Source of the DNA: a virus
Reading direction: 5' to 3' (one strand)
Virus record (IMG/VR): IMGVR_UViG_3300045996_000404
Coordinates: 1 to 32,430 of that record
DNA length: 32,430 nucleotides
In this document: one piece after another, positions 84 to 24,309 of the stretch
Layout: the number at the start of each line of letters is the position of its first letter
Numbering within the stretch: the first letter of the stretch is position 1
Notes under the pieces: model-generated
Database searches by the model: none
The model's input: the letters and a program-made list of their open reading frames with translations, nothing else
What the model was told of the DNA's origin: nothing
Position numbers and translations under genes: made by a program

Positions 84-101
84 GGGGCTTCGCCCCTTTT
101 T
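84..101 (+). terminator. Intrinsic terminator upstream of the PAPS-reductase-like gene
   Basis: A GGGGC/GCCCC stem (84-88 with 92-96, three-base loop) is followed directly by five T residues (97-101), so it reads as a rho-independent terminator for plus-strand transcription entering from the left. It ends 22 bases before the ATG of the gene at 124. Whatever is transcribed from outside the window would therefore stop here unless antitermination or attenuation applies. A nine-codon reading frame with an AGGAG-like ribosome site (51-80) ends four bases before the stem. Confidence 0.7.
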
Positions 102-123
102 GGCTAGAAGTGTTTGGAGAGAA

Positions 124-984
124 ATGACCGACCCGTTCAAGATCGACGGCCCGACCTGCCTCCAATTCAGTGGCGGCCGGTCGAGCGCCTATTTGCTGTG
201 GCGCGCACTGAACGCGAATGGTGGGCTGCCGTCTGAGGCGGCGGTCTGCTTTGACAACACCGGCAAGGAGGAAGAAGCAACCTTGCGCTTTGTGGACCGC
301 TGTGCGCGTGAGTGGGGGGTCACGATTCATTGGCTCGAATACCGCCGGGGCCTATACGGCGATGGAGGTAGCGCGCCACTGTTCGGCGTTACGAACTTCG
401 ATGAGGCAAGCCGCAACGGGGAGCCATTCGAGGCGGTCATAGCGCAGAGAGGCGGGACACTGCCGAACCCCCGGTCACGGTACTGCTCGTCGGAGCTAAA
501 GACGCGCACGACACACCGATACCTCCGCCACCTCGGCTGGGACGAATGGGAAACGATGATCGGCGTTCGGGCCGACGAGCAGCGCCGGGTGGCGAAGTTT
601 CGCTTCAACCCGCACCCGGAAACCAAGGCGGAGTATGTGCGCATCCCGCTGGCTGATGCCTTCGTCACCGCGCAGGAGGTGGGCGACTTCTGGAAGCGCC
701 AGCCGTTCGACTTGGAGCTGCCCAACCACAACGGCAAGACGATGCACGGCAACTGCGATCTGTGCTTCCTGAAGCCGGCGCATCAGGTGTTCAGCCTCAT
801 TGCGGAGAAGCCGGAGCGCGCGGTGTGGTGGGCCAAGCAGGAGGCGGAATCGCGGGCGTCGCACGACGGTCGGTTCTTCCGCAACGACCGCCCAAGTTAC
901 GCAGAGATGTCGAAGTACGCGGCCAGTCAACGAGACATCTTCGATACCACCGAGGAAGCCATTGCGTGCTTCTGCGGGGACTGA
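124..984 (+). CDS. PAPS-reductase-like PP-loop family protein
   Basis: A 286-aa protein of the phosphoadenosine phosphosulfate reductase/adenine-nucleotide alpha-hydrolase-like fold. The PP-loop SGGRSSA lies at residues 16-22. It is followed by FDNTGKEE, a cysteine in RYCSSELK, a GNCDLCF pair and a C-terminal CFCGD, so several cysteines could hold a metal or Fe-S site. I chose the ATG at 124 because GGAGAG sits just upstream; the frame is also open from a TTG at 100, which has no comparable ribosome site. Members are frequent in phages, where they are thought to activate substrates with ATP for sulfur or nucleotide chemistry, but the substrate is unknown. It lies 22 bases upstream of the DUF4224-integrase pair on the same strand, so co-transcription is likely. 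Family call firm, biochemical role not. Confidence 0.85.
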   Translation: MTDPFKIDGPTCLQFSGGRSSAYLLWRALNANGGLPSEAAVCFDNTGKEEEATLRFVDRCAREWGVTIHWLEYRRGLYGDGGSAPLFGVTNFDEASRNGEPFEAVIAQRGGTLPNPRSRYCSSELKTRTTHRYLRHLGWDEWETMIGVRADEQRRVAKFRFNPHPETKAEYVRIPLADAFVTAQEVGDFWKRQPFDLELPNHNGKTMHGNCDLCFLKPAHQVFSLIAEKPERAVWWAKQEAESRASHDGRFFRNDRPSYAEMSKYAASQRDIFDTTEEAIACFCGD

Positions 985-1006: not shown

Positions 1007-1201
1007 GTGCTAACGCTAACCGAGGCTGAAATTCGCGAGATAACGGACTACGTGCAGCCCGCTCGCCAGCTCGCCGAACTGCGACGGCAGGGCTTCTACC
1101 GGGCGCGTATGGGCCGGCATGGCGGCGTGATTCTGGAGCGGGCACACTACGAGGCTGTCGCCCAAGCCGAACTTAAAGAGCGCCGCCGAGCTGCCGCATG
1201 A
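1007..1201 (+). CDS. DUF4224-like small protein upstream of the integrase
   Basis: A 64-aa protein starting at GTG 1007, with the purine-rich sequence TGGAGAAG just upstream. It opens with LTLTEAEIREIT, then YVQPARQLAELRRQGF, which matches the DUF4224 pattern (short acidic helix, 'KPSAQ'-like turn, then a basic LRR..GF segment). DUF4224 proteins are commonly found directly upstream of phage tyrosine integrases; an excisionase or DNA-binding role is often suspected but is not established. Its TGA overlaps the integrase ATG (ATGA at 1198-1201), indicating translational coupling. The C-terminus is rich in Arg and Ala. No catalytic residues are apparent. Confidence 0.75.
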   Translation: MLTLTEAEIREITDYVQPARQLAELRRQGFYRARMGRHGGVILERAHYEAVAQAELKERRRAAA

Positions 1202-2157
1202 AACTACCCCCCTGCGTCTATCTCAAGCACGGCGCCTATTGGCTCGTGAAGCGGAACAAGTGGAACCGCCTTTGCTCCGAAGCCGCCGGGCTGCCAGCCA
1301 TGTACCGAGCGCTCGCGCACTTCACCGACGCCGAGCACATGCACGACTTCATGCCAGCAGTGGTCTGCCGCTGGCTGGAGTCAAAGCGCGACCGCATCGC
1401 GGCGTCAACCTTCGAGGACTATGAGCGTTACTGCGCGTTCCTGTGCGCCGAACTCGCCGGGCTGTCCCCGCATCAAGTGACAACGAAGATTTGCGCGGAC
1501 ACCCTGCGTAAGATTACGAAGGCGCGCACGTTCAACATCTATCACACCATCCTGCGCCAAGTGCTGAGTTTCGCGGCGACCGAAGGGCTGCGCGAGGGCT
1601 ACAACCCAGTGGACGACATCCCGCAGAAGGCCAACAAGGTGCGCAAGCGGCTCGTGCAGCCCAGCGAGCTGGAGGCGATCAAGGCCGAGGCACTGACCCA
1701 CCGCAACGGGGAGGCACTGGTGCAGATGATCGACCTTGCCACGATCACCGGCCAGCGAATCGGCGACTTGCTGAATCTGCGCTGGCAGGACGTGACCGCG
1801 CGCGGGGTCTACTTCAAGCAGCAGAAGACCGGCAAGGAGCTTTACGTGAAGTGGAGCCCCAAGCTGCACGCAGTCATCAACGCATGCGCCAAGGCCGGCA
1901 GGATCGGCCATGTGCTGAAGACGCAGACTGGCAACCGCTACACCTACAGCGGGATTCGCTCTGCGTGGCAACGCGCGTGCGATGCATGCGGCATCGAAAA
2001 CCTGAACATCCACGACTTGCGCAGGCGCGCCGGGATGGACGCCAAAGCGGCCGGAAACATGGAGGCAGCGCAGCGCCTGCTGGGCCACACCGACCCGCGG
2101 CAGACGGCTGATTACGTGGACGGAAACGAGCCGGACGAGGTTGTCCCGGCCGGTTGA
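1198..2157 (+). CDS. int: Phage tyrosine recombinase (integrase)
   Basis: A 319-aa integrase of the tyrosine recombinase family, which would catalyse site-specific recombination between phage attP and bacterial attB. All the expected catalytic residues are visible: Arg187 in TGQRIGDLLNLRW, Lys210 in QQKTGK, His272 and Arg275 in IHDLRRRAG, His297 in LLGHTD, and nucleophile Tyr306 in TADYV. Residues about 50-140 form the core-binding (SAM-like) domain, and the N-terminal 40 residues resemble a small arm-binding segment. Length is normal for phage integrases. The ATG overlaps the stop of the DUF4224 gene. The stop codon abuts a cluster of ATTCTTAGACA repeats that may be its arm sites. The gene looks intact and functional. 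Confidence 0.95.
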   Translation: MKLPPCVYLKHGAYWLVKRNKWNRLCSEAAGLPAMYRALAHFTDAEHMHDFMPAVVCRWLESKRDRIAASTFEDYERYCAFLCAELAGLSPHQVTTKICADTLRKITKARTFNIYHTILRQVLSFAATEGLREGYNPVDDIPQKANKVRKRLVQPSELEAIKAEALTHRNGEALVQMIDLATITGQRIGDLLNLRWQDVTARGVYFKQQKTGKELYVKWSPKLHAVINACAKAGRIGHVLKTQTGNRYTYSGIRSAWQRACDACGIENLNIHDLRRRAGMDAKAAGNMEAAQRLLGHTDPRQTADYVDGNEPDEVVPAG

Positions 2158-2898: not shown

Positions 2899-3114
2899 GT
2901 GAAGCGAGTCCCCTACTACCGCTGGTGGATCCCTGACGAGCGCCGTCCCGGCAAAGTCAGGCTCACGTCCTGGCGCATGAGCGAGAAGGAAGCGCAAGGC
3001 TATCCCGGCGCAAAGCCCGACGAATCTGACGTGGAGTGGCGAGACATCGCAGAAACCGAGGATGAGCGCATTGCGGCTCACTCGCATTCGGTCAATCTGC
3101 CGAAACGTCGATGA
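2899..3114 (+). CDS. Small conserved phage protein (71 aa)
   Basis: A 71-aa protein starting GTG 2899 with KRVPYYRWWIPDE, then a basic SWRMSEKEA stretch and EWRDIAET. Small proteins with this opening (YYRWW, then a threshold-like 'TSWRMSEEEA' and 'EWRD') recur in phages of high-GC proteobacteria; no function is known to me. No clear Shine-Dalgarno sequence precedes the GTG. A TACATT that could be a -10 element lies at 2884-2889, without a good -35, so a very short or absent leader is possible but unproven. Its 3' end overlaps the 3' end of the minus-strand metallophosphoesterase gene by 23 bases. It is the last gene of the plus-strand group. Confidence 0.7.
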   Translation: MKRVPYYRWWIPDERRPGKVRLTSWRMSEKEAQGYPGAKPDESDVEWRDIAETEDERIAAHSHSVNLPKRR

Positions 3115-4081
3115 CGTGCCCGCGAAAATCGACCTTGCCGAACTCCAGTGTCCGGCACACCTCGGGCCAAAGGAGTTGACCTTTATGGAACGTAGCGACA
3201 GCGAAGCCACTGCGCCAGTCGGTGAAGCCGTCTTCGAGGTAGTCGGTGAACTGGGGGCCACTCGGATCAGCAAGCGTCCCTGTGTCTACACCCCATCGGG
3301 TGCCGTTGTAGTCATCGAGGGGCGTGACCTTGAGCTGGTGCAAGTGCCCGGTGAAGGTGGTTTTCCCCGCGTTCAGGGTATTGTTCCGCGTCGCGTGGAC
3401 TCCGCCACGCAGCCGGTGCTTTATTACCACCTCGTCATTGATCCAGACAGACCAGCATGGCGCCCAAGCAGTGAAGTGGTCTTTGAGACTAAAGCCACGC
3501 ACGCCCTCGTACTCGCCGGCATTCTGTGCGAGTCGGTTTTCGAAGCGGGCATCATGGTTCCCGAGGGGCCAGTAAAGCTTTGCTCCGCGCGCCGCGTCCT
3601 CGATCTCACCAAGTCTCTCCTTGCAAGCCGCCAACTCCTCGATGACGCTGGGCTTGCTGTCCCACCCGATACGCGGGTAGCGGCTGATTGATGCCCCGTC
3701 GAAGGCGTCGCCGTTGTTGATGATGGCCTTCGGCTTGAGTTCGGCGATGAACCGGAGCAGCGCCTTGAACGCCGTTGTCCGCACCCCGGGCCAGAAGTGC
3801 GCATCGCTGAATATGAGGACAACGCCGTCCGTCACTTCCAGTTGACGCCGGGCGGTGTGCTCCGTGGGGGACAGGTGCTTGTAGTGGTGGGCGCTGCCTC
3901 TGCTGCCCTCCAGCCGGATGTTGTATCGCTGCTCGATGCGCCGCCTGCGGTCGTGGACGTTGCGCGGATCGAGCTTCAGCACCTCGGCGAGCTTGGCCGC
4001 GCTCTGGTGCGTCTTCCAGAGTTCGATGAACTCCGGGTCGGTACAGCGCATGTTGGTGGTCTGCCCTTTGACGTGGCTCAT
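3092..4081 (-). CDS. Calcineurin-like metallophosphoesterase with N-terminal helix-turn-helix-like region
   Basis: A 329-aa protein. Residues 86-270 hold the full metallophosphoesterase signature: SDAHF (Asp93, His95), NNGDAFDG (Asp125), GNHDARF (174-177), His222 in VIKHRL and GHLHQ (245-248). These residues would bind two metal ions and hydrolyse a phosphoester; the substrate is unknown. Residues 10-60 (MRCTDPEFIELW...SAAKLAEVLKLDPRNVHDRRRRIE) look like a winged or simple helix-turn-helix, suggesting nucleic-acid binding. It is the last gene of the late operon. Its ATG overlaps the stop of the Ntn-hydrolase gene (ATGA at 4078-4081). Phage genomes often carry such enzymes near the lysis end. 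Family is certain, role is not. Confidence 0.9.
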   Translation of the reverse strand: MSHVKGQTTNMRCTDPEFIELWKTHQSAAKLAEVLKLDPRNVHDRRRRIEQRYNIRLEGSRGSAHHYKHLSPTEHTARRQLEVTDGVVLIFSDAHFWPGVRTTAFKALLRFIAELKPKAIINNGDAFDGASISRYPRIGWDSKPSVIEELAACKERLGEIEDAARGAKLYWPLGNHDARFENRLAQNAGEYEGVRGFSLKDHFTAWAPCWSVWINDEVVIKHRLRGGVHATRNNTLNAGKTTFTGHLHQLKVTPLDDYNGTRWGVDTGTLADPSGPQFTDYLEDGFTDWRSGFAVATFHKGQLLWPEVCRTLEFGKVDFRGHVIDVSAD

Positions 4082-7957: not shown

Positions 7958-9392
7958 CGGCGCCCCGCAGCAGCGGGTTGTTCGCTGCCCCGATGAGGCC
8001 CTGACCTGTACGGCCCGCCGCTGGCGCTGAGGCGTTGAGCATGCGAGCGGTAATCGCCTTGAACGCCGCACTCTTGTCGGCCATGAACGCGAGGAAGCTC
8101 ACCGGGTTGCTTGCCAGCAGCGCGAGCCCACCGGGGTTCTTGTTCAACTCCATGAGCGCGCGACGCTCCACGACATCGAGCGTGCGAATCAGGCGGGACT
8201 CCTCGGCGTTCAGCGCGCCCACCCCAGGAACGGCGGTCGAGATTTCCTCTTTCAGCCCGCGAGCCAGCGCCTTTTGCGCCTCAGTCTCCGCGCTGCCGAG
8301 CGTGCCGTACTTGCCGTCAAGCACCTTGTACGTCCCCTGCTTCATCTGCTGGGCCACCTGAACCGGGATGTCGTTGCCCGGCAGGTTCGGGTGCCGCGTG
8401 AAGTCGTCGGCGACACCTTGGATCGCGTTGAGGTCGGCGGTCGGGCTCACCTGATTGCCGAACTTCTGCCGGGTGCCGGCAAGCGCGTTGAGCACTTTGC
8501 CCTTGTCCACTGTGGCCGACGACGCCTTGATGTTGTTCGCAATCTCGTCGTTGAGCCTCGTGATGAGCGTGCGCAGCTTCTCGACGCCAGCCTGACTCGG
8601 GTTGATGCCGTGCTCAAGCATCGCTTGCACCGCGACAGCGGCGTCCCCGCTCTTGAGTTGCGCGAGCGTTGGCTTGATAGCGCTTTGCATCAGGCGGTTC
8701 GCGCCGGCCGATACCGCATTGCCCACCGCGGCCCCAGCGCGCCCAGCGAGGTTCACGCCCGGTGGCAGAAGGCCGCCGACCACGGCACCGCCTTGGGCTT
8801 GCTGCGGATCGACCAGCCCAGCCGACGCGCCTCCGGTCGCTGCGCCTCCTGCTGCGCGAATGCCCATGTCACCCGCGCGAGCGAGGGCGTTGGTCGCCCC
8901 CGTGGCGCCGAGGGACATGCCGCCCGAGGTGAGCGCGTTGCCAAGCCGGGTCATTCCGACCGCCCCTGCCCCGATCCCGAGCGCCGGTCCAACCCCGACC
9001 GTTCCGGCCACTTCGCCGGCCAGCTTGCCAGCCCCATAGGCCAGCGAATCCGTGTCCGCGCCCACGAGGTTACTCAGCGCGGCGTCCATGTCGCGGCGGC
9101 GCTCCGTGTTGCTGGTGCCGTTGAGCTTGTCAACGGGGTACATCAGCGTGGCGCCGATGCTGCCAGCGCCGCGCACGAGGCCCGCGCCCACGTTGGCGAG
9201 TTCCTTCGCGCGATCCCCAACTGCGCCCAGGATCGCGCCGCCGACAGAAGACTCCTTCTTGGCGGCCGGCGCAGGCTTCTCCGCCGCGAAGTGCTGTTCC
9301 ATCATGGACTGCGCCTGTTCGGGCGTCGTTCCATCCGGCACCTCGAAGCGGGCGATCCGCCCGTCCGGCATCTGGAAACGTGCGATGGGCAT
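7932..9392 (-). CDS. Probable internal virion / DNA-ejection protein (486 aa)
   Basis: A 486-aa protein. The N-terminus (FQMPDGRIARFEVPDGTTPE) is the short beta module 'DGRIARFEVPDGT...AQ' found at the start of many podovirus internal and ejection proteins. Residues about 50-240 are very rich in Gly and Ala with amphipathic helices (GGAILGAVGDRAKELANVGA), compatible with membrane insertion during DNA delivery. Residues 250-420 are more polar and helical. It is the third of three consecutive probable ejection genes, and its ATG abuts the stop of the 443-aa gene. It is followed by an intrinsic terminator. Assignment rests on composition, N-terminal motif and gene order, so it is moderate. Confidence 0.65.
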   Translation of the reverse strand: MPIARFQMPDGRIARFEVPDGTTPEQAQSMMEQHFAAEKPAPAAKKESSVGGAILGAVGDRAKELANVGAGLVRGAGSIGATLMYPVDKLNGTSNTERRRDMDAALSNLVGADTDSLAYGAGKLAGEVAGTVGVGPALGIGAGAVGMTRLGNALTSGGMSLGATGATNALARAGDMGIRAAGGAATGGASAGLVDPQQAQGGAVVGGLLPPGVNLAGRAGAAVGNAVSAGANRLMQSAIKPTLAQLKSGDAAVAVQAMLEHGINPSQAGVEKLRTLITRLNDEIANNIKASSATVDKGKVLNALAGTRQKFGNQVSPTADLNAIQGVADDFTRHPNLPGNDIPVQVAQQMKQGTYKVLDGKYGTLGSAETEAQKALARGLKEEISTAVPGVGALNAEESRLIRTLDVVERRALMELNKNPGGLALLASNPVSFLAFMADKSAAFKAITARMLNASAPAAGRTGQGLIGAANNPLLRGAAIQAEANP

Positions 9393-10708
9393 TACTCGAA
9401 TCCCAGGAACTTGGCTTTGCCCGCGGTGGCAGCGGGCGCGGCCGGCGCACCCCGCGAAGCGATGGCGTTGATGCGTTCGTCGCTGTGGCCGGCGTCGATC
9501 AGGTCCTGGCGCGCCGTCTCAAATACCTTGCGGGTCAGGTTCTCGCGTGTCTTGAGGTTCCGAGCCACAACGTCCGGGTGCATTCCCGGGGCGATGTCGG
9601 CCGACCGCCAAGAGCCTTGCTCAGTAGGCGTGAGCGCCGCGCCGAAAAGGGCGTGCCGCTCTACAAGCTCGGCCTCCTTGCGGTAGTTCTTCCACCACTC
9701 CACCGCGTCCTTGTCGGCGCCGACGTTTCCGCTGACGGCCATTTGCATGTCGCCGCCGAAGCCGAGCACGCCCTTACCAGCGTACTCAGGCTTGAACGAG
9801 GAGGTCAAACGCTCGATGGTCACCGCGTTGTCGCGGGCCTCGGTGATCTGCTTCAGCACCGCCTGAGGCAGCGGCTTGGCCGCCGCCTCCTTGGGGCCGA
9901 TAGGCTTGCCGTCCTGCGTCACCGGCGTAGCCTGCCCCGTGCGCGGATCGACGAGAACGCCGCGCGCAGGGTCATAGACGCCCTTCGGCTGGTTCCGGTT
10001 CAAGTCCAGCTCCTGCCGGCGAAGGCCGAGATTCGCCTGAGCCACGCCGAGGTGACCGGCGCTGATTCCCTCGGTGCGCTGGTTGTGGCGTGTCGTCTCC
10101 GCAAGCTGCGCCTGAGCATGCTTCTGCGCGAGGTGCTTCTCCATGCCCATGGCCGCCTGCTGGCGCCACTGCATGAACCCCTGAGGGTCTTGCGGGATGC
10201 GGGCGATGGCTTGCTGCGGGTCGCCCATGGCCGCCATCGTGTCGCGGGTGAGCGGGTCGGTGAACTGCGCTTGCAGCCACTGAGCCGCCGCTTGCGGGTT
10301 GTCGATGAGGTCGAGCGCCTGACGGTACTGCTGGAGCCGCGCGCCAGTCGCCTTGATGTTCGTCTCGGTGGTCTGCGCGGTCTTGTGACCAGCTTCGGCG
10401 TGATCCTTTGCCGCGTCGGCCTGCGCCTTCTCGTAGGCTTGCGCCTCGGTGAGATAGCCGGCCTTGTAGAGCATCAGCGCGTTCCGCTTGTGATCCTCGC
10501 CGAAGCCGCCGACTACGCCGGCCAGGGCGTTCGCCCGCTCGGTGGCGCGTTGCTTGTCGGCGAGCCCCATCTGCCCCGCCTGGAGGGCGAGCGCGTTGCG
10601 CTGGATGGACTGGTTTTGCAGGTCGTTCTGCGCGAACTCGGACTGATAGTCCATCATGGACCGAGGGCGAGCGCCCAGCGCGTTAAAGATGCTTGCGTCG
10701 ATGCCCAT
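9392..10708 (-). CDS. Probable internal virion protein (438 aa)
   Basis: A 438-aa protein starting MGIDASIFNALGARP at ATG 10708, which overlaps the stop of the gene before it (TAATG). A long Gln- and Ala-rich helical region (residues 15-220, with many LQNQSIQRNALALQAGQ-like heptads) suggests coiled coils, followed by a Pro/Gly-containing middle and a polar C-terminus ending GKAKFLGFE. Composition, size and position between two Gly/Ala-rich proteins fit an ejection or internal core protein such as those injected with the genome by P22-like phages. No enzymatic motif is visible. Confidence 0.6.
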   Translation of the reverse strand: MGIDASIFNALGARPRSMMDYQSEFAQNDLQNQSIQRNALALQAGQMGLADKQRATERANALAGVVGGFGEDHKRNALMLYKAGYLTEAQAYEKAQADAAKDHAEAGHKTAQTTETNIKATGARLQQYRQALDLIDNPQAAAQWLQAQFTDPLTRDTMAAMGDPQQAIARIPQDPQGFMQWRQQAAMGMEKHLAQKHAQAQLAETTRHNQRTEGISAGHLGVAQANLGLRRQELDLNRNQPKGVYDPARGVLVDPRTGQATPVTQDGKPIGPKEAAAKPLPQAVLKQITEARDNAVTIERLTSSFKPEYAGKGVLGFGGDMQMAVSGNVGADKDAVEWWKNYRKEAELVERHALFGAALTPTEQGSWRSADIAPGMHPDVVARNLKTRENLTRKVFETARQDLIDAGHSDERINAIASRGAPAAPAATAGKAKFLGFE

Positions 10709-17283: not shown

Positions 17284-19082
17284 TACTGCACCACGACGTT
17301 ATCGTTGGTGGCGACGGTCTGGATCGCCACGCGGTTGTATCGGGCGGCCGGCGTCACCGTGCCGGCATCCACGCCATCCAGCGTCACGCCGGTTGCGCAT
17401 GTGATCGTCGGGCGCCCAACGCCGCCCCAAATGACGGTCACGCCGTTGGGGAACGACTGGCCGGCAGCGATGGTGAAGCTCCCAGCGCCTGCCCCGGTGT
17501 AGCGCAGGACCGTGCCGTCATCGGCGCTCACCAGCGCGCGGGCCGCCGCCTCATCGACCGGCGTGAAGTTCGAGCTTCCGCCGCCGCCTGTGATGTTCAC
17601 CGTGACCGCGCCGCCGGTGTTGCTGGCGGTGACGCCAGAGCCGGTGAAGTCGATCGAGGTCAGCGAAGTGGTGAGCGTCGAGCCCTCATCCTTGACCGTG
17701 ATGGGGACCGTGGTGGTGGCGTCTGGATCGTAGATTTCGACCGTGTAGCCTTCCAGGCTCACCGTGTCGGATGTGCTCGCGCGAGTGAGTTCGATCGTGA
17801 CCGCAACACCCGCGACCCCGGTGGCCGCCGTTGCGGTGCCGAAGACCAGGGTGGACGAGCCTGTCAGACCCAACTGGGTCGAGGCCATGCCGATCTGCGA
17901 GGACGTGCTGTTGCGGTTGCGGAAGGCGATGCAGCCATCCACCGCAAGCGTTGAGGCGGCCGGCGACACCGCGCCGTTACCGTACAGGCTCGTGCCGCCC
18001 AACTTCACGTTGAAGGACAGCGTGCCGTTCGTGCCGACCTTCTTGACCTTGTAGCGGATGACGACTTCCGCATTGGCGCCAAGCGCCGGCAGGGAAATGC
18101 TCGCCACCTGCTCGGCCACCCCGGCGCCCGCCGAAATGGTGACCGTCGCACCGCTGGAGGCGTAGGGCTTGAACACCGAGCCATAGCCGGACGAGGCCAG
18201 CATGGTTTGCAGCAGCGCAGCCAGCGCGGTGAGCGTCACGTCGGAGGGCGCTGCGGTGCTGCCGCTGACGTTGCCCTTCACCGTGTTGTTCGCCATCGTG
18301 GCGAGCTTGGCGTTGCTCCACGAGGCGTCAGGCACTGTGACCGTGCCAGTCATCGTCGGGGAGGTGATCGTCGGCGTGTTGATCGTCGGCGAAGTGAGCG
18401 TCTTGTTCGTCAGCGTGGCCGCGTTGGTCCGCTCGGCGAAGACGTGCGCCGTAGTCGCAACCTGCGTGGTGTTCGTCGCAGCGGCTGCGGTGGGTGCGGC
18501 AGGCGTGCCGGTGAACGTCGGCGAAGCAAGGTTGGCCTTCAGGTCGAGCGCGGTTTGCGCTGCGGTGCTGACCGGCTTGTTCGCGTCCGAGGTGTTGTTG
18601 ACGTTGCCCAGGCCCACCATCGTCGCCGTGATGCCCGACACCGTGCCGGTGAAGGTGGGCGAGGCGATGTTGGCCTTGAGGTCAAGCGCGGCCTGCTGGG
18701 CGGTGCTGACGGGCTTGTTGGCGTCGGACGTGTTGTCCGCATTGCCAAGACCCACATCGCCCTTGACGATCCCGCTCGGCGTGGTGATGACGGGCGATGC
18801 CGCGATCAGCGTGCCGGTGGGGAACGTCTTGGCGGCAATGTTGGTCTGGATCTGATCCAGCACCATGTCGCCTGCGCCAGGCGGCGTGTTGAAGGTGCCG
18901 TCAGCACAGAGGTAGGTGGACGAGCCGCCCCCGGACGCAGGGACCAAGCCGGCAGCAACGGAGGTGAACGTGCTGGTGCCTGCTTTGGTCGCAAGCTCGT
19001 CGTTCACGCCATCGAAGTTCGCATCGACTTCTGCGGCCGTGAGATTGCGACCCAGGCCGACGCGGCGGGTTATGACTGCCAT
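17283..19082 (-). CDS. Tail fibre protein with phage-fibre repeats
   Basis: A 599-aa fibre. The N-terminus (VGLGRNLTAAEVDANFDGVN) is the attachment module shared by many fibres. Residues about 100-220 contain imperfect repeats around NNTSDANKPVSTAAQTALDL and LKANLASPTFTGTPAAP, a well-known trimeric shaft repeat. Then come Thr-rich repeats (SPTINTPTITSPTMTGTVTV) and, from residue 300, a beta-rich domain resembling a capsular or fibre knob. The stop overlaps the start of the spike gene behind it. It probably carries the spike or contacts the host surface. Confidence 0.85.
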   Translation of the reverse strand: MAVITRRVGLGRNLTAAEVDANFDGVNDELATKAGTSTFTSVAAGLVPASGGGSSTYLCADGTFNTPPGAGDMVLDQIQTNIAAKTFPTGTLIAASPVITTPSGIVKGDVGLGNADNTSDANKPVSTAQQAALDLKANIASPTFTGTVSGITATMVGLGNVNNTSDANKPVSTAAQTALDLKANLASPTFTGTPAAPTAAAATNTTQVATTAHVFAERTNAATLTNKTLTSPTINTPTITSPTMTGTVTVPDASWSNAKLATMANNTVKGNVSGSTAAPSDVTLTALAALLQTMLASSGYGSVFKPYASSGATVTISAGAGVAEQVASISLPALGANAEVVIRYKVKKVGTNGTLSFNVKLGGTSLYGNGAVSPAASTLAVDGCIAFRNRNSTSSQIGMASTQLGLTGSSTLVFGTATAATGVAGVAVTIELTRASTSDTVSLEGYTVEIYDPDATTTVPITVKDEGSTLTTSLTSIDFTGSGVTASNTGGAVTVNITGGGGSSNFTPVDEAAARALVSADDGTVLRYTGAGAGSFTIAAGQSFPNGVTVIWGGVGRPTITCATGVTLDGVDAGTVTPAARYNRVAIQTVATNDNVVVQ

Positions 19083-19094
19083 CTAGGGGAACCT

Positions 19095-19289
19095 CTATGC
19101 GTAGTTGTCGGCGTAGTTGTCGGCGTACAGGCTTGCGCCCTCGACGACTTCTTCCACCGGAGCGGTGCGGGCGCGCGGCTCGATGAACTTGCGGCCGTTG
19201 AATTCGTAGGCGGTTTCTTGGTCGCCCCACTCTTTGCCCCAGGCACGCTGGGACACTTCGAGCCAACTGAGTTGCCGGGTCTGCGTCAT
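19095..19289 (-). CDS. Small phage protein with YADN repeat tail (64 aa)
   Basis: A 64-aa protein starting MTQTRQLSWLEVSQRAWG, one base after the stop of the gp4-like gene and 12 bases before the tail fibre. The C-terminus ends ...SLYADNYADNYA, in which the four-residue unit YADN is duplicated; the DNA shows the matching 12-base repeat (19098-19121). No domain is recognised. Its place between the tail accessory and fibre genes suggests a small tail or chaperone-type protein. Confidence 0.6.
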   Translation of the reverse strand: MTQTRQLSWLEVSQRAWGKEWGDQETAYEFNGRKFIEPRARTAPVEEVVEGASLYADNYADNYA

Positions 19290-19290
19290 G

Positions 19291-20247
19291 TCAGTACGAG
19301 TCCGGCTCGCTCTGGTAGTACGCGGTCGATTTCGCAGGGTTGGCGTTCTTCGCCATCGCCAGCGATTCGTCGCGAACGGACTTCAATTCCGCCGTCAGCG
19401 GCTTGCCGAACGGCATGCACAGGTCCATCGACAGCTGCGCCGACAGCGGGCGGAACCACTCGGCCGGGAAGTCCACGTCATCGCCCGTAGCCGTCGAGTC
19501 CTCGATGGCCGACAGGTAGACGAAGCGCAGCACGTCGGTGAGTTCTTCCGGCGCGCGGTTGAGGTACAGCGTTGCGCCGGTCTTGCCCGCCTCGAAGTAG
19601 CCCGCCGAGGGGCGACCTTCGTTGCTCTTGGTCGGGATGAGTTCGTATTCGCTCACCGACAGATTCGGGTCGAACGGCACGTCATCGCCGTTGGTATCGC
19701 GCACCACCGCCGAGATGATCTCCAGCGGGCGCAGAATCTTGCTGGTGTAGGCGAACACCTGCGCGCCACCGGCAACCGCGCCCGTGAGCGCGGCCGTGAT
19801 CGTGACGGTCGATCCGCTGGGTGCCCCGTTGATGGTCGTCCACTGGAACGACCCGGAGTCCAGCAGCACGCCGATGCGCATGGCGCTTGCAAGCCCCGAG
19901 ATGGAACTCACCGTGAGCGTGGTTGCGCCCGCTATCGTCGCTGCCGTGGTCGTCGTGGAGACGTAGGCCTCGGAGGCGCACTCGTCGCCGGTCGGGCCGA
20001 GGTCATAGCCGACCTGGCCCGACTGCATGAACAGGTAGCCGCGGCGCCGGGTCCACATCTTCAAGCCCGGCGCGAAGTCCGCAGACCCCGACCACTGCTT
20101 GACGATCATGTTGAGCTTGCGGCGAGCCAGCACCACGTCTTCGGCGTTGAGCGTTTGCCCGGCCGCAGCAACGCCGATGTTCTCCAGCGCGTCGGTGATG
20201 ATGTCCAGCTCGGTGACGCTGAAACTGGTGGTGCCGCTAGTTGGCAT
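19291..20247 (-). CDS. P22 gp4-like tail accessory / head-completion protein
   Basis: A 318-aa protein. The N-terminus TELDIITDALENIGVAAAGQ and the following block (AEDVVLARRKLNMIVKQWS) match the gp4 family of P22-like phages ('DI...AL..IGVL..GE.....E...AL..LN.M...W'). P22 gp4 closes the portal after packaging and has a peptidoglycan-hydrolase activity in its family description. Residues 100-160 are an inserted Thr/Ala-rich beta module (TTTTAATIAGATTLTVSSIS), making it longer than P22 gp4 (about 166 aa); this insertion is common in beta-proteobacterial podophages. It follows directly after the methyltransferase-GT gene (no intergenic space). Confidence 0.8.
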   Translation of the reverse strand: MPTSGTTSFSVTELDIITDALENIGVAAAGQTLNAEDVVLARRKLNMIVKQWSGSADFAPGLKMWTRRRGYLFMQSGQVGYDLGPTGDECASEAYVSTTTTAATIAGATTLTVSSISGLASAMRIGVLLDSGSFQWTTINGAPSGSTVTITAALTGAVAGGAQVFAYTSKILRPLEIISAVVRDTNGDDVPFDPNLSVSEYELIPTKSNEGRPSAGYFEAGKTGATLYLNRAPEELTDVLRFVYLSAIEDSTATGDDVDFPAEWFRPLSAQLSMDLCMPFGKPLTAELKSVRDESLAMAKNANPAKSTAYYQSEPDSY

Positions 20248-21780
20248 TTAGGCCGCCTTCCTCAGAAAGCCCTCGAAGGCCTCCCAGACTTGATCGACGC
20301 TGATGTCGGCAGCGCAGGCGGCCGTCCCAGTCACCTCGTCTCGCTTGCAGTGCTCAAAGCTGTACTGCATGAGATGGCACGGGAAACATGCGGTGTTGCG
20401 CGGCTCGACGCTCGCGGTGTTCACCCAATACTTCGTCAGGTTCTCGCGCGATGAATGCGACAGAAGAACGATCTTCGGCATGCCCATATGGCCCGCCGCG
20501 TTCAGAATCCCCGTCTCCGCGCCAATCACCATGTCGCACTCGGCCAGCAGCGCCATGCTTTCGCGAATGGTGTACTTGCCCGACTTCTTGACGATGCGAG
20601 GCTCGTTCTCCCAGCCCTCCTCCAGCATCTGCGACAGCTCGTCGCCGACCGTCAGAATCCGCGCCGTGGGGTGCTTGACCATCACGCGCGCGAAGAAGGC
20701 GTCCTGATGCGGCCACACCTTGTGAACGCTGGAGCCAGCCAGCGAGTACATGATGAGCATGGACCCGCCGATCTTCTGGCGCTCCTTCTTGGCCCACGCC
20801 TTTTCCTCGGCCGTGGCGTAGAACATGGGCTTGGGCGGCATCGGCACTTCGGCCAGGTCGTGCTGAAACTCCATGTAGTTCGTGTCCATGCGCTTGCGGC
20901 GCACGCTGATCGGCCACGCATGGTTCGGGCGGCCGGGCAGTGCCAACAGCGTGCCCTCAACGGACTCGCTCAGGTTGATGAACTTCTCGTACTTCTTCTT
21001 CTCCCAGCCCCAAAAGTGCGGCAGGGCGAGGTTCGGCACCTGGTCGGTGTCCTGGATGTAGAACTCGTCAATGTGCGGGTCATGCCGCAGCACGTCTTGC
21101 GTGCGGGGCGTGCAGTAGAACGTGACGTGGTAGCCCTGCTCCTTCAGCGCCGGCAGGATGCTGCTGGCCTGGATGGCGTCACCGAACGCGCCATAGCGCA
21201 GCACGGCCGCTCGCTTGGCCGGCTTCGGGTTGCGGTGGCTGTACAGGTGCTTGCCGTCCGTGCGCTTTTTGAAGACGAAGAACAGCGAGTACTCGAAGTC
21301 CTCGTTCCGCTTCTCGCAGCGCACCAGATCCCAGCCGCCAACCTCTTTCATGGCCGCGAGCACCCGCTCGGTGTTCACGTTCCACTTGTGGTCGGGGTTG
21401 GCTCCTGGCTCGCCGACCTTGGGATACTCGTCCTCGTCGGGGAGGTACAGAACGAGGTAACCCGAGGGCTTGATGACGCGCCACCACTCCTTCAGGCACG
21501 CCGCGTAGTCGCTGACATGCTCCAGGCAGTGGCTGGAATACGCGAAGTCCATCGACGCCGAGCCGAACACGTCGAGCTTGGTCACGTCGGACACCACGTC
21601 CGGCTTCATCTGCGTGCCGAACTGGGCCGTGGCGGTGTAGTTGTCCACACCGATGAAGTGCGGAAACGCCTTGTTGGCGCCGCATCCGAGATCCAGGCCG
21701 CGACCACGGGTGTAGGGCACAAGCTCCCACATGATCTTTCCCGATTCGTTGCCTTGTGGATCTTCTGCGCGCCAGACCAT
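20248..21780 (-). CDS. Fusion of SAM methyltransferase and GT9-type (heptosyltransferase-like) glycosyltransferase
   Basis: A 510-aa protein from ATG 21780. Residues 1-170 are a class I methyltransferase: motif I LDLGCGANKAFPHFIGVD, an acidic motif II region and SSHCLEHVSDYAACLKEWWR, then VIKPSGYLVLYLP. Residues 195-500 match glycosyltransferase family 9 (ADP-heptose:LPS heptosyltransferase type): RYGAFGDAIQASSILPALKE near the start and MVIGAETGILNAAGHMGMPK near the C-terminus, where GT9 enzymes bind the nucleotide sugar. Six cysteines cluster near the end (FPCHLMQYSFEHC..). It lies inside the morphogenesis genes, between the decoration-like gene (with an intervening terminator) and the gp4-like gene. 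It may modify host LPS or a virion component; substrate unknown. No frameshift is seen. Confidence 0.85.
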   Translation of the reverse strand: MVWRAEDPQGNESGKIMWELVPYTRGRGLDLGCGANKAFPHFIGVDNYTATAQFGTQMKPDVVSDVTKLDVFGSASMDFAYSSHCLEHVSDYAACLKEWWRVIKPSGYLVLYLPDEDEYPKVGEPGANPDHKWNVNTERVLAAMKEVGGWDLVRCEKRNEDFEYSLFFVFKKRTDGKHLYSHRNPKPAKRAAVLRYGAFGDAIQASSILPALKEQGYHVTFYCTPRTQDVLRHDPHIDEFYIQDTDQVPNLALPHFWGWEKKKYEKFINLSESVEGTLLALPGRPNHAWPISVRRKRMDTNYMEFQHDLAEVPMPPKPMFYATAEEKAWAKKERQKIGGSMLIMYSLAGSSVHKVWPHQDAFFARVMVKHPTARILTVGDELSQMLEEGWENEPRIVKKSGKYTIRESMALLAECDMVIGAETGILNAAGHMGMPKIVLLSHSSRENLTKYWVNTASVEPRNTACFPCHLMQYSFEHCKRDEVTGTAACAADISVDQVWEAFEGFLRKAA

Positions 21781-21805
21781 TGATTGCGTTGCCGGTTGGT
21801 GAATG

Positions 21806-21828
21806 AAAAAGGGGACCCGAAGGTCCCC
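21806..21828 (-). terminator. Intrinsic terminator after the head genes
   Basis: A perfect seven-base stem GGGGACC/GGTCCCC with a TTCG tetraloop is followed on the minus strand by five T residues (21806-21810). It lies 21 bases after the stop of the 130-aa decoration-like gene and 25 bases before the start of the methyltransferase-glycosyltransferase gene. It would end or lower head-gene transcription, so tail genes would depend on antitermination or partial read-through. Confidence 0.85.
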
Positions 21829-21848
21829 TCTGCCGGGTGCGTGGCCGC

Positions 21849-22241
21849 TTACGCGGTCAGCGCGGCTCCCGGGGTCAGCTTGCACTCGACGGCGAAGCTC
21901 ATCACCGCGGTGGCGTCGGTGCCGTGGGTCAGGTAGACCTGATCGCCGGCAATCAGCGAAACCGCAGTGGCGAGTTCGTCACGCCGGGTGGCGCGCGAGG
22001 CAGACGTGAGCACCGTCAGCGTGGTGGTGGCGGTCGTGGTGCCGCTCACCGTGTACATCAGCGGTTGCGAGCCGGCAGCGGTCGATGCGATGTTCGGCGA
22101 GGTTTGAACTGCCTTGATCTGCATCGCCGTGAAGGCCGCGAACTTCTGGCTGATGCCGTTGGCGCCGACCGTGGTGTTGCCGGCGAAGACGTGCGGCGCG
22201 GAATACGCCGGGTTGTCGTATGCGAGGTTCTGTTGAGCCAT
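21849..22241 (-). CDS. Capsid decoration-like / head protein (130 aa)
   Basis: A 130-aa protein beginning MAQQNLAYDNPAYSAPHVFA, directly downstream of the major capsid gene. It is Ala/Thr-rich and beta in character (SQPLMYTVSGTTTATTTLTV, IAGDQVYLTHGTDATAVMSF), like small decoration or head-stabilising proteins that follow the capsid gene in many tailed phages. It shares the MAQQ start with the capsid protein. The gene is followed by a strong terminator. No enzyme motif; assignment by position and composition. Confidence 0.7.
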   Translation of the reverse strand: MAQQNLAYDNPAYSAPHVFAGNTTVGANGISQKFAAFTAMQIKAVQTSPNIASTAAGSQPLMYTVSGTTTATTTLTVLTSASRATRRDELATAVSLIAGDQVYLTHGTDATAVMSFAVECKLTPGAALTA

Positions 22242-22258
22242 GGATCACTTTCATTGCT

Positions 22259-22279
22259 CCTGCACGTCTCCCATGCAGG
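22259..22279 (-). promoter_or_regulatory. Small hairpin upstream of the decoration-like gene
   Basis: CCTGCA and TGCAGG (six-base stem, nine-base loop) lie in the 85-base gap between the capsid and decoration-like genes. One arm overlaps AGGAG, the only strong ribosome-site-like sequence here, which is about 15 bases from the ATG at 22241. There is no T tract, so it is not an intrinsic terminator. It might mark an RNA processing or translation-control site, or be chance. Nothing else is seen in this gap. Confidence 0.3.
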
Positions 22280-22326
22280 GCGTTGGTTGGCAGAGGGGGC
22301 AGACCCTTTGAGCCAAGTTCAGGAGG

Positions 22327-23310
22327 TCAGACCGCCGAATCCCACTTGATCACGCGGGCTTGGTCTTGAGCCGAATGCACCAAGCCGAAACCTTGCAGCG
22401 AGTACCACGCCACACCCTTGGACCGGCCGTAGTCGGTCGGGATCTTGGCGCGGATCTCCATCGGGATCGCGATGCCCTCGGCGACGGTTTCTTCACCGAG
22501 GAAGAAGATCCAGTCGCTGAAGCCGCCGTTCCACGCGTCCGCCGTGTTGGTGAACGGATTGAACGTGGTGGAGTCCGCGGCACCGCCCTTCGGGATGTTG
22601 GTCTGCTCGACATAGCGCATGTTCTCGTAACGGCCGATTTCGCCGTTGAAGATCATTTGCAGGCCGGTTTCCGTGTAGGTGTGCAGCGTTTCCAGCTGGT
22701 TCTTGATGGTGCGGAACGTGGTGGGCCAGCCCAGCGCGATGTAGTCATCGCCGGCATAGGCCGGGATGTTGCGCTCCTTCATGGTGTCCACGATCAGCTT
22801 CGCATGGCCGGTGTTGTACGCCTGCGAGTTCGTCGCGGTCGCCGTGCCGTTCGTGGTCAGCGTGATGGTGGTGGACGAGGTGCCGACGACGCGCAGCGGG
22901 GTGGCGTTGAACTGCTGGTGAGCAGCCGCGTCCATCACCTTCTTCGCGTCGTTCTTCAGCGCCTTCATGACGGGCTCCTTGACGCTGAACTGCGACAGCG
23001 CTTCGAGCTTGCCCGAGTAGGGGACCGAGTTGCCGTACTCCGTGATCGTCAGGGTGCCCTGCGTGATCACGAAGTTGGTTTCGGGCATCGTGTTCGTTTC
23101 CGTCAGGGTGTTGCCCTGAGTCTGGACGTTCGACACGATGTCCCAGGTGAAGGTGTTGCCCTTCCCCTTGCCTTGCTGCGACGCATCCTTCACGTCGCAG
23201 AATTGCCGGAATTTCATCTCCGGCTGGAGGGCTGTACGCAGCTCTTTCGAGAGGTTCAGCGAGTAGAAATAGCCGCCAAGGGAATTGACGGCCCACAGTT
23301 GCTGTGCCAT
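22327..23310 (-). CDS. Major capsid protein, N4-gp56-like
   Basis: A 327-aa protein starting MAQQLWAVNSLGGYFYSLNL. It has the family blocks of the N4-gp56/HK97-fold capsid group: NLSKELRTALQPEMKFRQFC at the N-terminus, GKGNTFTWDIVSNVQTQG, then TLTITEYGNSVPYSGKLEAL, AAAHQQFNATPLRVV in the spine-helix region, and a C-terminal SKGVAWYSLQGFGLVHSAQD. Order scaffold-capsid-decoration and a 12-base spacing from the scaffold gene support the call. Length is normal for the family. It would assemble the icosahedral head around the scaffold. Confidence 0.88.
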   Translation of the reverse strand: MAQQLWAVNSLGGYFYSLNLSKELRTALQPEMKFRQFCDVKDASQQGKGKGNTFTWDIVSNVQTQGNTLTETNTMPETNFVITQGTLTITEYGNSVPYSGKLEALSQFSVKEPVMKALKNDAKKVMDAAAHQQFNATPLRVVGTSSTTITLTTNGTATATNSQAYNTGHAKLIVDTMKERNIPAYAGDDYIALGWPTTFRTIKNQLETLHTYTETGLQMIFNGEIGRYENMRYVEQTNIPKGGAADSTTFNPFTNTADAWNGGFSDWIFFLGEETVAEGIAIPMEIRAKIPTDYGRSKGVAWYSLQGFGLVHSAQDQARVIKWDSAV

Positions 23311-23322
23311 TTGAGAAGACTC

Positions 23323-24309
23323 CTATCGTTTGACGGGCCGCCCCATCCGAGCCTTTCGTTCCGCCTCGATGATTTCGGAGACGGTAGGCTCACGGGGTGG
23401 CGCGGGGGGTGCCGGCCGCGCAGAGGCGGCGGGGACTGTGACAATGGTTCGCTTCTTCTCCGCTTTGTCGGCCAGGTTCACCGCCGGGCCTTTGCCCGAC
23501 AGCTTTCTCATCCACTCTCGAACCGCTTCGCCGTGCTTGCGATAGGCCTCGAAGGGGTCGCCGAAGCTCTCCCCGAGTGCCGTCGCCGTGCTCAGGCGTC
23601 GTTCTTCAAGATTGGCTGCCATGCCCATCAAATGCGGGTCAGCCGCGATGTCGGGGAACTCCTTGCGAAAGGATTCCGCCGCCTTTTGCGCATCACGCAT
23701 GTACAACTTGTTTTCCAAGTACGTATCGAGCGCCTGAGGGTCGAGCCCTTGGGTAGCTTGCTGATGCTGTTGGGGCGCGTCTTGCGATGGCGCCGTGTCA
23801 GTGGAAGCGGTGTCCGGGTTGGATAGCCGCTGTGCTTGCCGGAGAAGCTCTTCGGCTTGCCGTTTTGCTTGTGTCGCCTCTTGGAGACGGCGGTCGGCAG
23901 CCTGATCCTTTTGCAGGGTCCGCTTGCCGGCCTCGATGATTCGCGATTCCTCAACCTCGATGGTCTGCCCGTCAACGACGATGGCGACCATCTTGGGCGC
24001 AGCAGGCGCTGGAGCGGCGGGTTCTTCCTTCGCCTCTGGCTCTGGCTGCGACTCGCCTTCAGTCGCCAGCTCGGACGGCTCCTGATACGTGTCCGGCGCG
24101 GGTTCTTCCTTCGCCGGCTCGTTCGGGATGATCTCGCCCGTGTCCTCGTTGAAGGCGTGGAGGTCGGGCGCTACCTCGGCGTGCACCTTGGCGGCGATCT
24201 CTTCCTCGACGCTCGAGCGATTGGTGAGATGCTGGCTTTGTGCGCCGCTTTCGGGCTCGCCCTCTGTTTGGTTCAGGAGGCGATGGGTCTTGTAGACGTG
24301 CATGGTCAT
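23323..24309 (-). CDS. Scaffolding protein
   Basis: A 328-aa, highly charged, acidic and Glu/Pro-rich protein immediately upstream of the capsid gene. Residues 30-110 are acidic and proline-rich (EEPAPDTYQEPSELATEGES). Residues 115-180 form a long charged coiled coil (QKDQAADRRLQEATQAKRQA), and the C-terminus is basic (SEIIEAERKARMGRPVKR), as expected for a helix-turn-helix capsid-binding end. This composition and position are typical of podovirus scaffolding proteins. Translation may begin at ATG 24309 or the ATG two codons later. No protease domain is visible. Confidence 0.82.
   Translation of the reverse strand: MTMHVYKTHRLLNQTEGEPESGAQSQHLTNRSSVEEEIAAKVHAEVAPDLHAFNEDTGEIIPNEPAKEEPAPDTYQEPSELATEGESQPEPEAKEEPAAPAPAAPKMVAIVVDGQTIEVEESRIIEAGKRTLQKDQAADRRLQEATQAKRQAEELLRQAQRLSNPDTASTDTAPSQDAPQQHQQATQGLDPQALDTYLENKLYMRDAQKAAESFRKEFPDIAADPHLMGMAANLEERRLSTATALGESFGDPFEAYRKHGEAVREWMRKLSGKGPAVNLADKAEKKRTIVTVPAASARPAPPAPPREPTVSEIIEAERKARMGRPVKR

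Follow-up and report, generated by a model that had tools for sequence, protein, structure and literature searches.

A methyltransferase-GT9 fusion fixed between the capsid and adaptor-like genes of uncultured phages may glycosylate the virion

What does a phage modify with a protein that joins a methyltransferase to a glycosyltransferase, when the gene for it lies among those for the head and neck? The question is raised by a locus in a 32,430-base virus record of IMG/VR, the whole of which is called the window here. A reading made from the sequence alone had offered two answers, modification of host LPS or glycosylation of a virion protein.

The gene, MT-GT9, is a minus-strand ORF with its ATG at 21780 and its TAA at 20250-20248. 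It had been placed, with no strand given, at 20248-21828; the left end is correct, but the ORF reaches no further than 21780, and a right end at 21828 takes in most of a terminator. The gene and its parts are:

20248..21780, minus strand: MT-GT9 fusion gene, 510 aa, ATG start, TAA stop (Pfam, AlphaFold2 (AF2) model, orthologues)
21256..21780, minus strand: class I SAM methyltransferase (MT) half, residues 1-175 (PF08241, conservation, PDB 3dli/1vlm), with motifs DxGxG 30-34, D46, SHxLEH 83-88 and NPDHK 128-132
20251..21216, minus strand: GT9 (GT-B) half, residues 189-510 (PF01075, hhalign to WaaF, residues), with motifs D201 (catalytic-base position), S350xxxK354, R406 and E422-T-G-x-x-N427
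20314..20388, minus strand: Cys4 site of the C-terminus, C465-x2-C468(H)-x9-C478-x10-C489 (residue conservation)

It is clear that the ORF is real and not a product of chance, as a search with its protein gave 90 related viral contigs (80 kept, 41-67% identity), most with a full-length relative. Pfam, alignment to WaaF and the AF2 model agree with the proposal that a methyltransferase domain and a GT9-like domain are joined in one 510-aa protein. Methyltransf_11 (PF08241) matched residues 29-111 (1.6e-11, above the curated cut-off) and was found in all 36 family members searched. Glyco_transf_9 (PF01075) matched residues 302-477 (8.5e-6; 25.7 bits against a cut-off of 22), although by this model alone just 10/36 members reach E 0.01. 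In hhalign, E. coli K-12 WaaF aligned along the entire GT9 half (189-510; E 7e-8). The AF2 model, built with 36 homologues, has a mean pLDDT of 90 and a pTM of 0.83. In Foldseek its N-terminal half folds like class I SAM methyltransferases (PDB 3dli/1vlm). The top PDB folds for the GT half were 3tov (8.9e-16) and WaaF (1psw, 2.2e-13), with weaker GT9 matches to WaaC (2h1h, 3.5e-9) and TibC (4rap/4rb4, ~5e-9).

Both active sites are intact. Residues were counted in 119 proteins, comprising 100 non-redundant fused proteins and 19 split GT proteins, and the loss of SAM- or nucleotide-sugar-binding residues that had been named as the outcome to look for was absent from them. Among the 100 fused proteins the MT residues G32 (98), G34 (98), D46 (99), E87 (99), H88 (98) and H131 (100) are kept, and the MT half has the Pfam model, glycine-rich motif and acidic residue after beta-2 of a class I SAM methyltransferase. 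In the GT9 half, D201, S350, K354, R406, E422 and H442 are invariant (119/119, fused and split). By hhalign, D201 corresponds to WaaF D13 (base position) and K354 to the donor-phosphate lysine; a model score above cut-off, a GT-B fold and equivalents of WaaC D13 and K192 place this half in GT9. Each of C465, C468, C478 and C489 is kept in 97-99 of the 100 fused proteins, with gaps in the others, and 19/19 split proteins have all four; this Cys4 site is a probable metal site.

The GT9 half resembles the LPS heptosyltransferases WaaC and WaaF in its full-length homology and in keeping D13 and K192. In HepI, D13, K192 and D261 are important for catalysis and completely conserved in the species compared (PMC5713226). 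In MT-GT9, however, the D261 equivalent, which aligns to the WaaF D-S-G, is always Glu (Glu422, 119/119), and almost all members have Asn in place of the His that comes after it, so that the WaaF D-S-G-x-x-H is replaced by E422-T-G-x-x-N427 in the fusion family. MT-GT9 also differs in being fused to a methyltransferase and in lying in a phage structural operon. Identity as an LPS heptosyltransferase (WaaC/WaaF/WaaQ) was rejected on the D261 position and on scores of 24.5 bits against 134.6 for heptosyltransferase II and 23.8 against 185.3 for heptosyltransferase I.

TibC glycosylates a protein, as a dodecamer and with ADP-heptose as donor. It uses Asp110, Thr226, Lys230 and Arg286, and the cysteines 339, 342, 358 and 370 make up its iron finger (PMC4358343). 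MT-GT9 shares with TibC and AAH, the bacterial autotransporter heptosyltransferases (BAHT), the GT-B fold, the catalytic-base Asp, Ser/Thr-xxx-Lys and a C-terminal Cys4, and S350xxxK354 has the spacing of TibC Thr226xxxLys230. Nevertheless, identity in the structural alignment is 11-14%, the Cys spacing is x2/x9/x10 rather than the x2/x15/x11 of the iron finger, a Rossmann-type methyltransferase stands where TibC has its N-terminal barrel, and there is no autotransporter. BAHT/TibC identity was rejected for want of the N-terminal beta-barrel and for the different Cys spacing. Judged by sequence, the GT9 half is an intact GT9 family member, yet orthologous to neither WaaC/WaaF nor TibC.

The locus is a minus-strand operon. 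Its upstream part encodes the terminase large subunit, portal, two small genes, two unassigned genes and capsid, followed by the jelly-roll gene, the terminator, MT-GT9, phrog_12985, fibre-like genes, Hc3 (phrog_578) and a DNA-ejection protein. The features used below are:

22327..23310, minus strand: major capsid protein (MCP), phrog_1357
21849..22241, minus strand: 130-aa jelly-roll protein, candidate for capsid decoration and candidate substrate (AF2, Foldseek, covariation)
21808..21831, minus strand: intrinsic-terminator hairpin GAGGGGACC-UUCG-GGUCCCC followed by a U-run, upstream of MT-GT9
20244..20262, minus strand: Shine-Dalgarno-like GAGGAAGG within the 3' end of MT-GT9, then the TAAATG stop/start junction
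19291..20247, minus strand: adaptor-like phrog_12985 protein of 318 aa, whose gene directly follows MT-GT9 in nearly all relatives
1198-2157, plus strand: integrase

Near the integrase are also a calcineurin-like metallophosphoesterase (PF00149, 1.4e-6; window 3092-4081, minus strand) and a weak PAPS-reductase-like match (window 100-984, plus strand).

The position directly after a strong terminator, noticed in the sequence-only reading, was confirmed by the folding energy of the hairpin at 21808-21831 (-22.6 kcal/mol, z -5.0; 0/200 shuffles equally stable), which a simple terminator scan had missed. Hairpin-plus-T sites occur in the MCP-to-adaptor interval of 53/100 relative loci; some lie inside genes, and these are probably due to chance. 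In the record of the E. coli phage PTXU04 a terminator is annotated 3' of the capsid gene and two small genes. No sigma-70-like promoter was found within 19000-23500. At its other end MT-GT9 is coupled to the adaptor-like gene, its stop adjoining the next start directly in TAAATG. In relatives the gap from stop to next start is mostly -4, 0, -1 or +3, and 136/158 gaps are within 20 nt, a count in which some contigs enter repeatedly and the nearest in-frame start was used. The gene had also been described as lying between decoration and gp4-like genes. Jelly-roll and phrog_12985 neighbours are indeed there, and those names for them are plausible, if unproven: phrog_12985 shows weak similarity to the head-tail adaptor Ad3 in 4/28 family members. 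Profiles of the adaptor-like and jelly-roll families, searched against PDB sequences, returned marginal matches at best.

Relatives show the recurrent order capsid, jelly-roll, 0 to ~5 kb of variable genes, MT-GT9, phrog_12985 and Hc3. To avoid circularity, two further baits were used, the phrog_12985 protein and the capsid protein. With the former, all 64 contigs with at least 1.5 kb upstream carry the GT (61 fused, 2 with adjacent separate MT and GT, 1 with a GT and no detected MT). With the latter, 32 contigs had 6 kb or more downstream, and 30 of them carry the GT (22 fused, 7 split, 1 GT only), whereas 2 have none. The fusion sought elsewhere thus recurs in 61/64 and 22/32 contigs, respectively. 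In the capsid-bait loci without MT-GT9 (L193, L202, L206) the intervening ORFs have no MT or GT match; L193 (5.6 kb downstream) and L202 may end short of the gene, and L206 looks like a real absence or replacement. The sequence-only reading had set this placement against that usual for LPS-modifying phage genes, as morons or near the integrase. MT-GT9 is no misplaced moron: practically all relatives have it, strongly conserved, as a constant part of the morphogenesis operon.

The arrangement of the two activities varies. MT and GT are separate genes in L067, L071-L080, L103, L104, L157, L166 and others, GT9-MT-GT9 triplets of three genes occur in L070, L073 and L074, and L143 has a GT without a detected MT. 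In L067 the MT (8001-8522) and GT (8516-9538) are in different frames with a 7-base overlap, either a natural split or a frameshift error. A TylF-type sugar O-methyltransferase is found in the same interval of L072, L004, L040 and L066, and a GT2 in that of L073; GT2 as a regular companion was rejected, with 1/15 larger contigs holding one besides L073. No sugar-nucleotide synthesis genes were noticed in the relatives' contigs, so the donor nucleotide sugar is probably made by the host.

MT-GT9 appears to have been gained in this uncultured lineage. The 50,697 phage records searched gave no full-length relative and three methyltransferase-only matches. The cultured phages PTXU04 and Bas95 have a related capsid (~48% identity) and Rhodoferax phage P26218 a related Hc3. 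All three have a similar order, with small hypothetical genes alone annotated between capsid and adaptor or Hc3, which is why the gene looks like a gain when sequences are compared. The sole match in the bacterial genome collection was a short phage-like contig (L082) binned with Acidobacteriaceae bacterium BOG_194, and in 201 genomes of the family of G016 (Acidobacteriaceae) the only full-length relative was that bin's phage contig, besides short methyltransferase matches. The bin is the one host lead for this phage group. Literature searches found no description of this MT-GT fusion.

Conservation within the module was compared in 46 dereplicated loci (fewer for some genes), with the window as reference. 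Median identity was 63% for MCP, 51% for MT-GT, 43% for portal, 36% for adaptor, 35% for jelly-roll and 28% for Hc3, making MT-GT9 the second most conserved protein after capsid. Its similarity matrix correlated with those of the other module genes (Mantel, Spearman rho 0.45-0.63, above all permutations). After correction for the adaptor, MT-GT still tracked the jelly-roll protein (0.37) but not capsid, Hc3 or portal; with MCP and adaptor both corrected for, the partial rho was 0.37 (0/500 permutations), and with the genes > 1 kb apart it was 0.27 (p 0.008, 24 loci). MCP against jelly-roll given adaptor was -0.01. The covariation suggests an enzyme-substrate pair, a suggestion weakened by the linkage of the genes, the number of tests and the modest sample of 35 loci.

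The jelly-roll protein was modelled by AF2 with a pLDDT of 92; in Foldseek it weakly resembled viral jelly-rolls and CBM6 modules, the best match having 4e-4. Its family has three invariant columns only, Thr70 among them, with Thr54 and Thr72 nearly invariant, and its divergence tracks MT-GT9 rather than capsid.

MT-GT9 is probably a bifunctional late enzyme that adds a sugar to a virion protein and methylates it (probability about 0.6). It would be produced together with the adaptor-like protein during morphogenesis. Its GT9 half would take a sugar from a nucleotide sugar supplied by the host and attach it to a residue, presumably Ser/Thr, of a head or neck protein; using SAM, its MT half would methylate this sugar or, with lower probability, the protein itself. 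Among possible substrates the strongest single candidate is the jelly-roll protein encoded next to it (21849-22241), with Thr54, Thr70 and Thr72 as candidate sites. We infer enzymatic activity, donor sugar, acceptor protein, order of steps and benefit, which may lie in particle stability, solubility or adsorption. A bolder form of the proposal is tentative: a single polypeptide that transfers and caps a sugar might be indispensable for assembling the virions of a widespread phage lineage not yet cultured, leaving an O-methylated sugar on conserved Thr residues of the jelly-roll capsid protein, and the E-T-G-x-x-N subfamily of GT9 might use a donor other than classical ADP-heptose.

Virion glycosylation is favoured over the alternatives because the gene is fixed and highly conserved in a morphogenesis operon rather than variable in the manner of a moron. 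Comparative support comes from synteny recovered with two independent baits, from high conservation within the module together with the jelly-roll covariation, and from the additional glycan enzymes (TylF, GT2, GT9-MT-GT9) in the same slot of relatives. The presence of TibC among the fold matches of the model and a Cys4 site like the TibC iron finger point the same way.

The nearest reported precedent for virion glycosylation by an MT and GT is Corndog, a cluster O mycobacteriophage. An O-methyltransferase (gp35) and glycosyltransferases (gp36-38) are encoded among its structural genes between portal and protease, and capsid modification was proposed (PMC4351075). A statement in a later paper has the cassette modifying capsid and tail-tube proteins (PMC11600133, citing Freeman 2023). 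MT-GT9 loci likewise encode MT and GT inside the structural block, and the precedent favours virion glycosylation to that extent. In Corndog, however, the genes are separate, in the portal-protease interval of long-tailed mycobacterial phages, whereas MT-GT9 is one fusion protein with a GT9 half, encoded between capsid and adaptor in phages that are uncultured and whose packaging and neck genes are of podovirus type (P22-like).

Modification of LPS or another host surface glycan, late in infection or in lysogens, could block re-adsorption of progeny or superinfection. Synthesis of the LPS core is what GT9 enzymes are best known for, phages in general often carry LPS-modifying genes, and the best curated GT matches of MT-GT9 are heptosyltransferases I and II. 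The fold search fails to separate protein from LPS acceptors, 3tov and WaaF outscoring TibC; a fixed place in the late operon would equally suit a late host-acting enzyme, and with an integrase at 1198-2157 a lysogen could benefit from a changed surface. On the other hand, phage genes that modify the host surface usually vary between relatives, whereas MT-GT9 keeps its place and surpasses both portal and adaptor in conservation, and it abuts or overlaps the adaptor gene. Its scores lie far under the LPS heptosyltransferase cut-offs, with Glu at the D261 position throughout. Moreover, the relatives come from many metagenomes, one contig being in an Acidobacteriaceae bin, and a shared LPS acceptor therefore seems unlikely. 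Of the two answers first offered, the virion is the one that comparative evidence favours, and action on LPS is less likely.

Less likely still, the halves may have different targets, with GT9 acting on a virion or host molecule and the MT on a side chain of a virion protein. Fused and separate arrangements do both exist, and L143 has its GT without a detected MT, but most relatives have the two halves in one protein, and where these are split their genes lie side by side; the match of the MT to generic small-molecule and sugar methyltransferase models is weak, and TylF occupies the same slot. The fixed place and high conservation would also suit a scaffold or chaperone of head-neck joining that is no longer an enzyme, which is very improbable given that conservation falls on the residues that serve catalysis and cofactor binding in both enzyme families. 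DNA can be a target of phage glycosyltransferases, yet addition of sugar or methyl groups to phage bases is hardly credible for a gene within a capsid operon whose MT half has no match among the DNA methyltransferase models of Pfam and NCBIfam and whose GT9 family, to our knowledge, includes no DNA glycosyltransferase.

Only a few cultured phages, notably those of mycobacteria, are known to have glycosylated virions. In a large environmental phage group MT-GT9 is almost as constant as the capsid gene itself, which suggests that glycosylation of the particle may be common and basic, not an extra that turns up now and then. Its conserved Cys4 site, altered GT9 motif and adjacent candidate substrate make the proposed virion glycosylation directly testable, and MT-GT9 could be put to use as a compact enzyme for glycosylating proteins.

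Other insertions occur in the variable interval that follows the capsid gene. A glycine-rich protein related to tail-fibre-assembly phrog_863, possibly a head fibre, is a recurrent insertion between the jelly-roll gene and MT-GT9 (L026:6394-7692 and 15 cluster ORFs, 362-899 aa). Homing-endonuclease-like ORFs of HNH type are found at L005:4800-5357, L018:1151-1786, L018:3132-3575 and L202:4636-5202, and one judged by eye to be LAGLIDADG-like at L064:5275-5658; among these, L202:4636-5202 alone was confirmed by Pfam (HNH_3).
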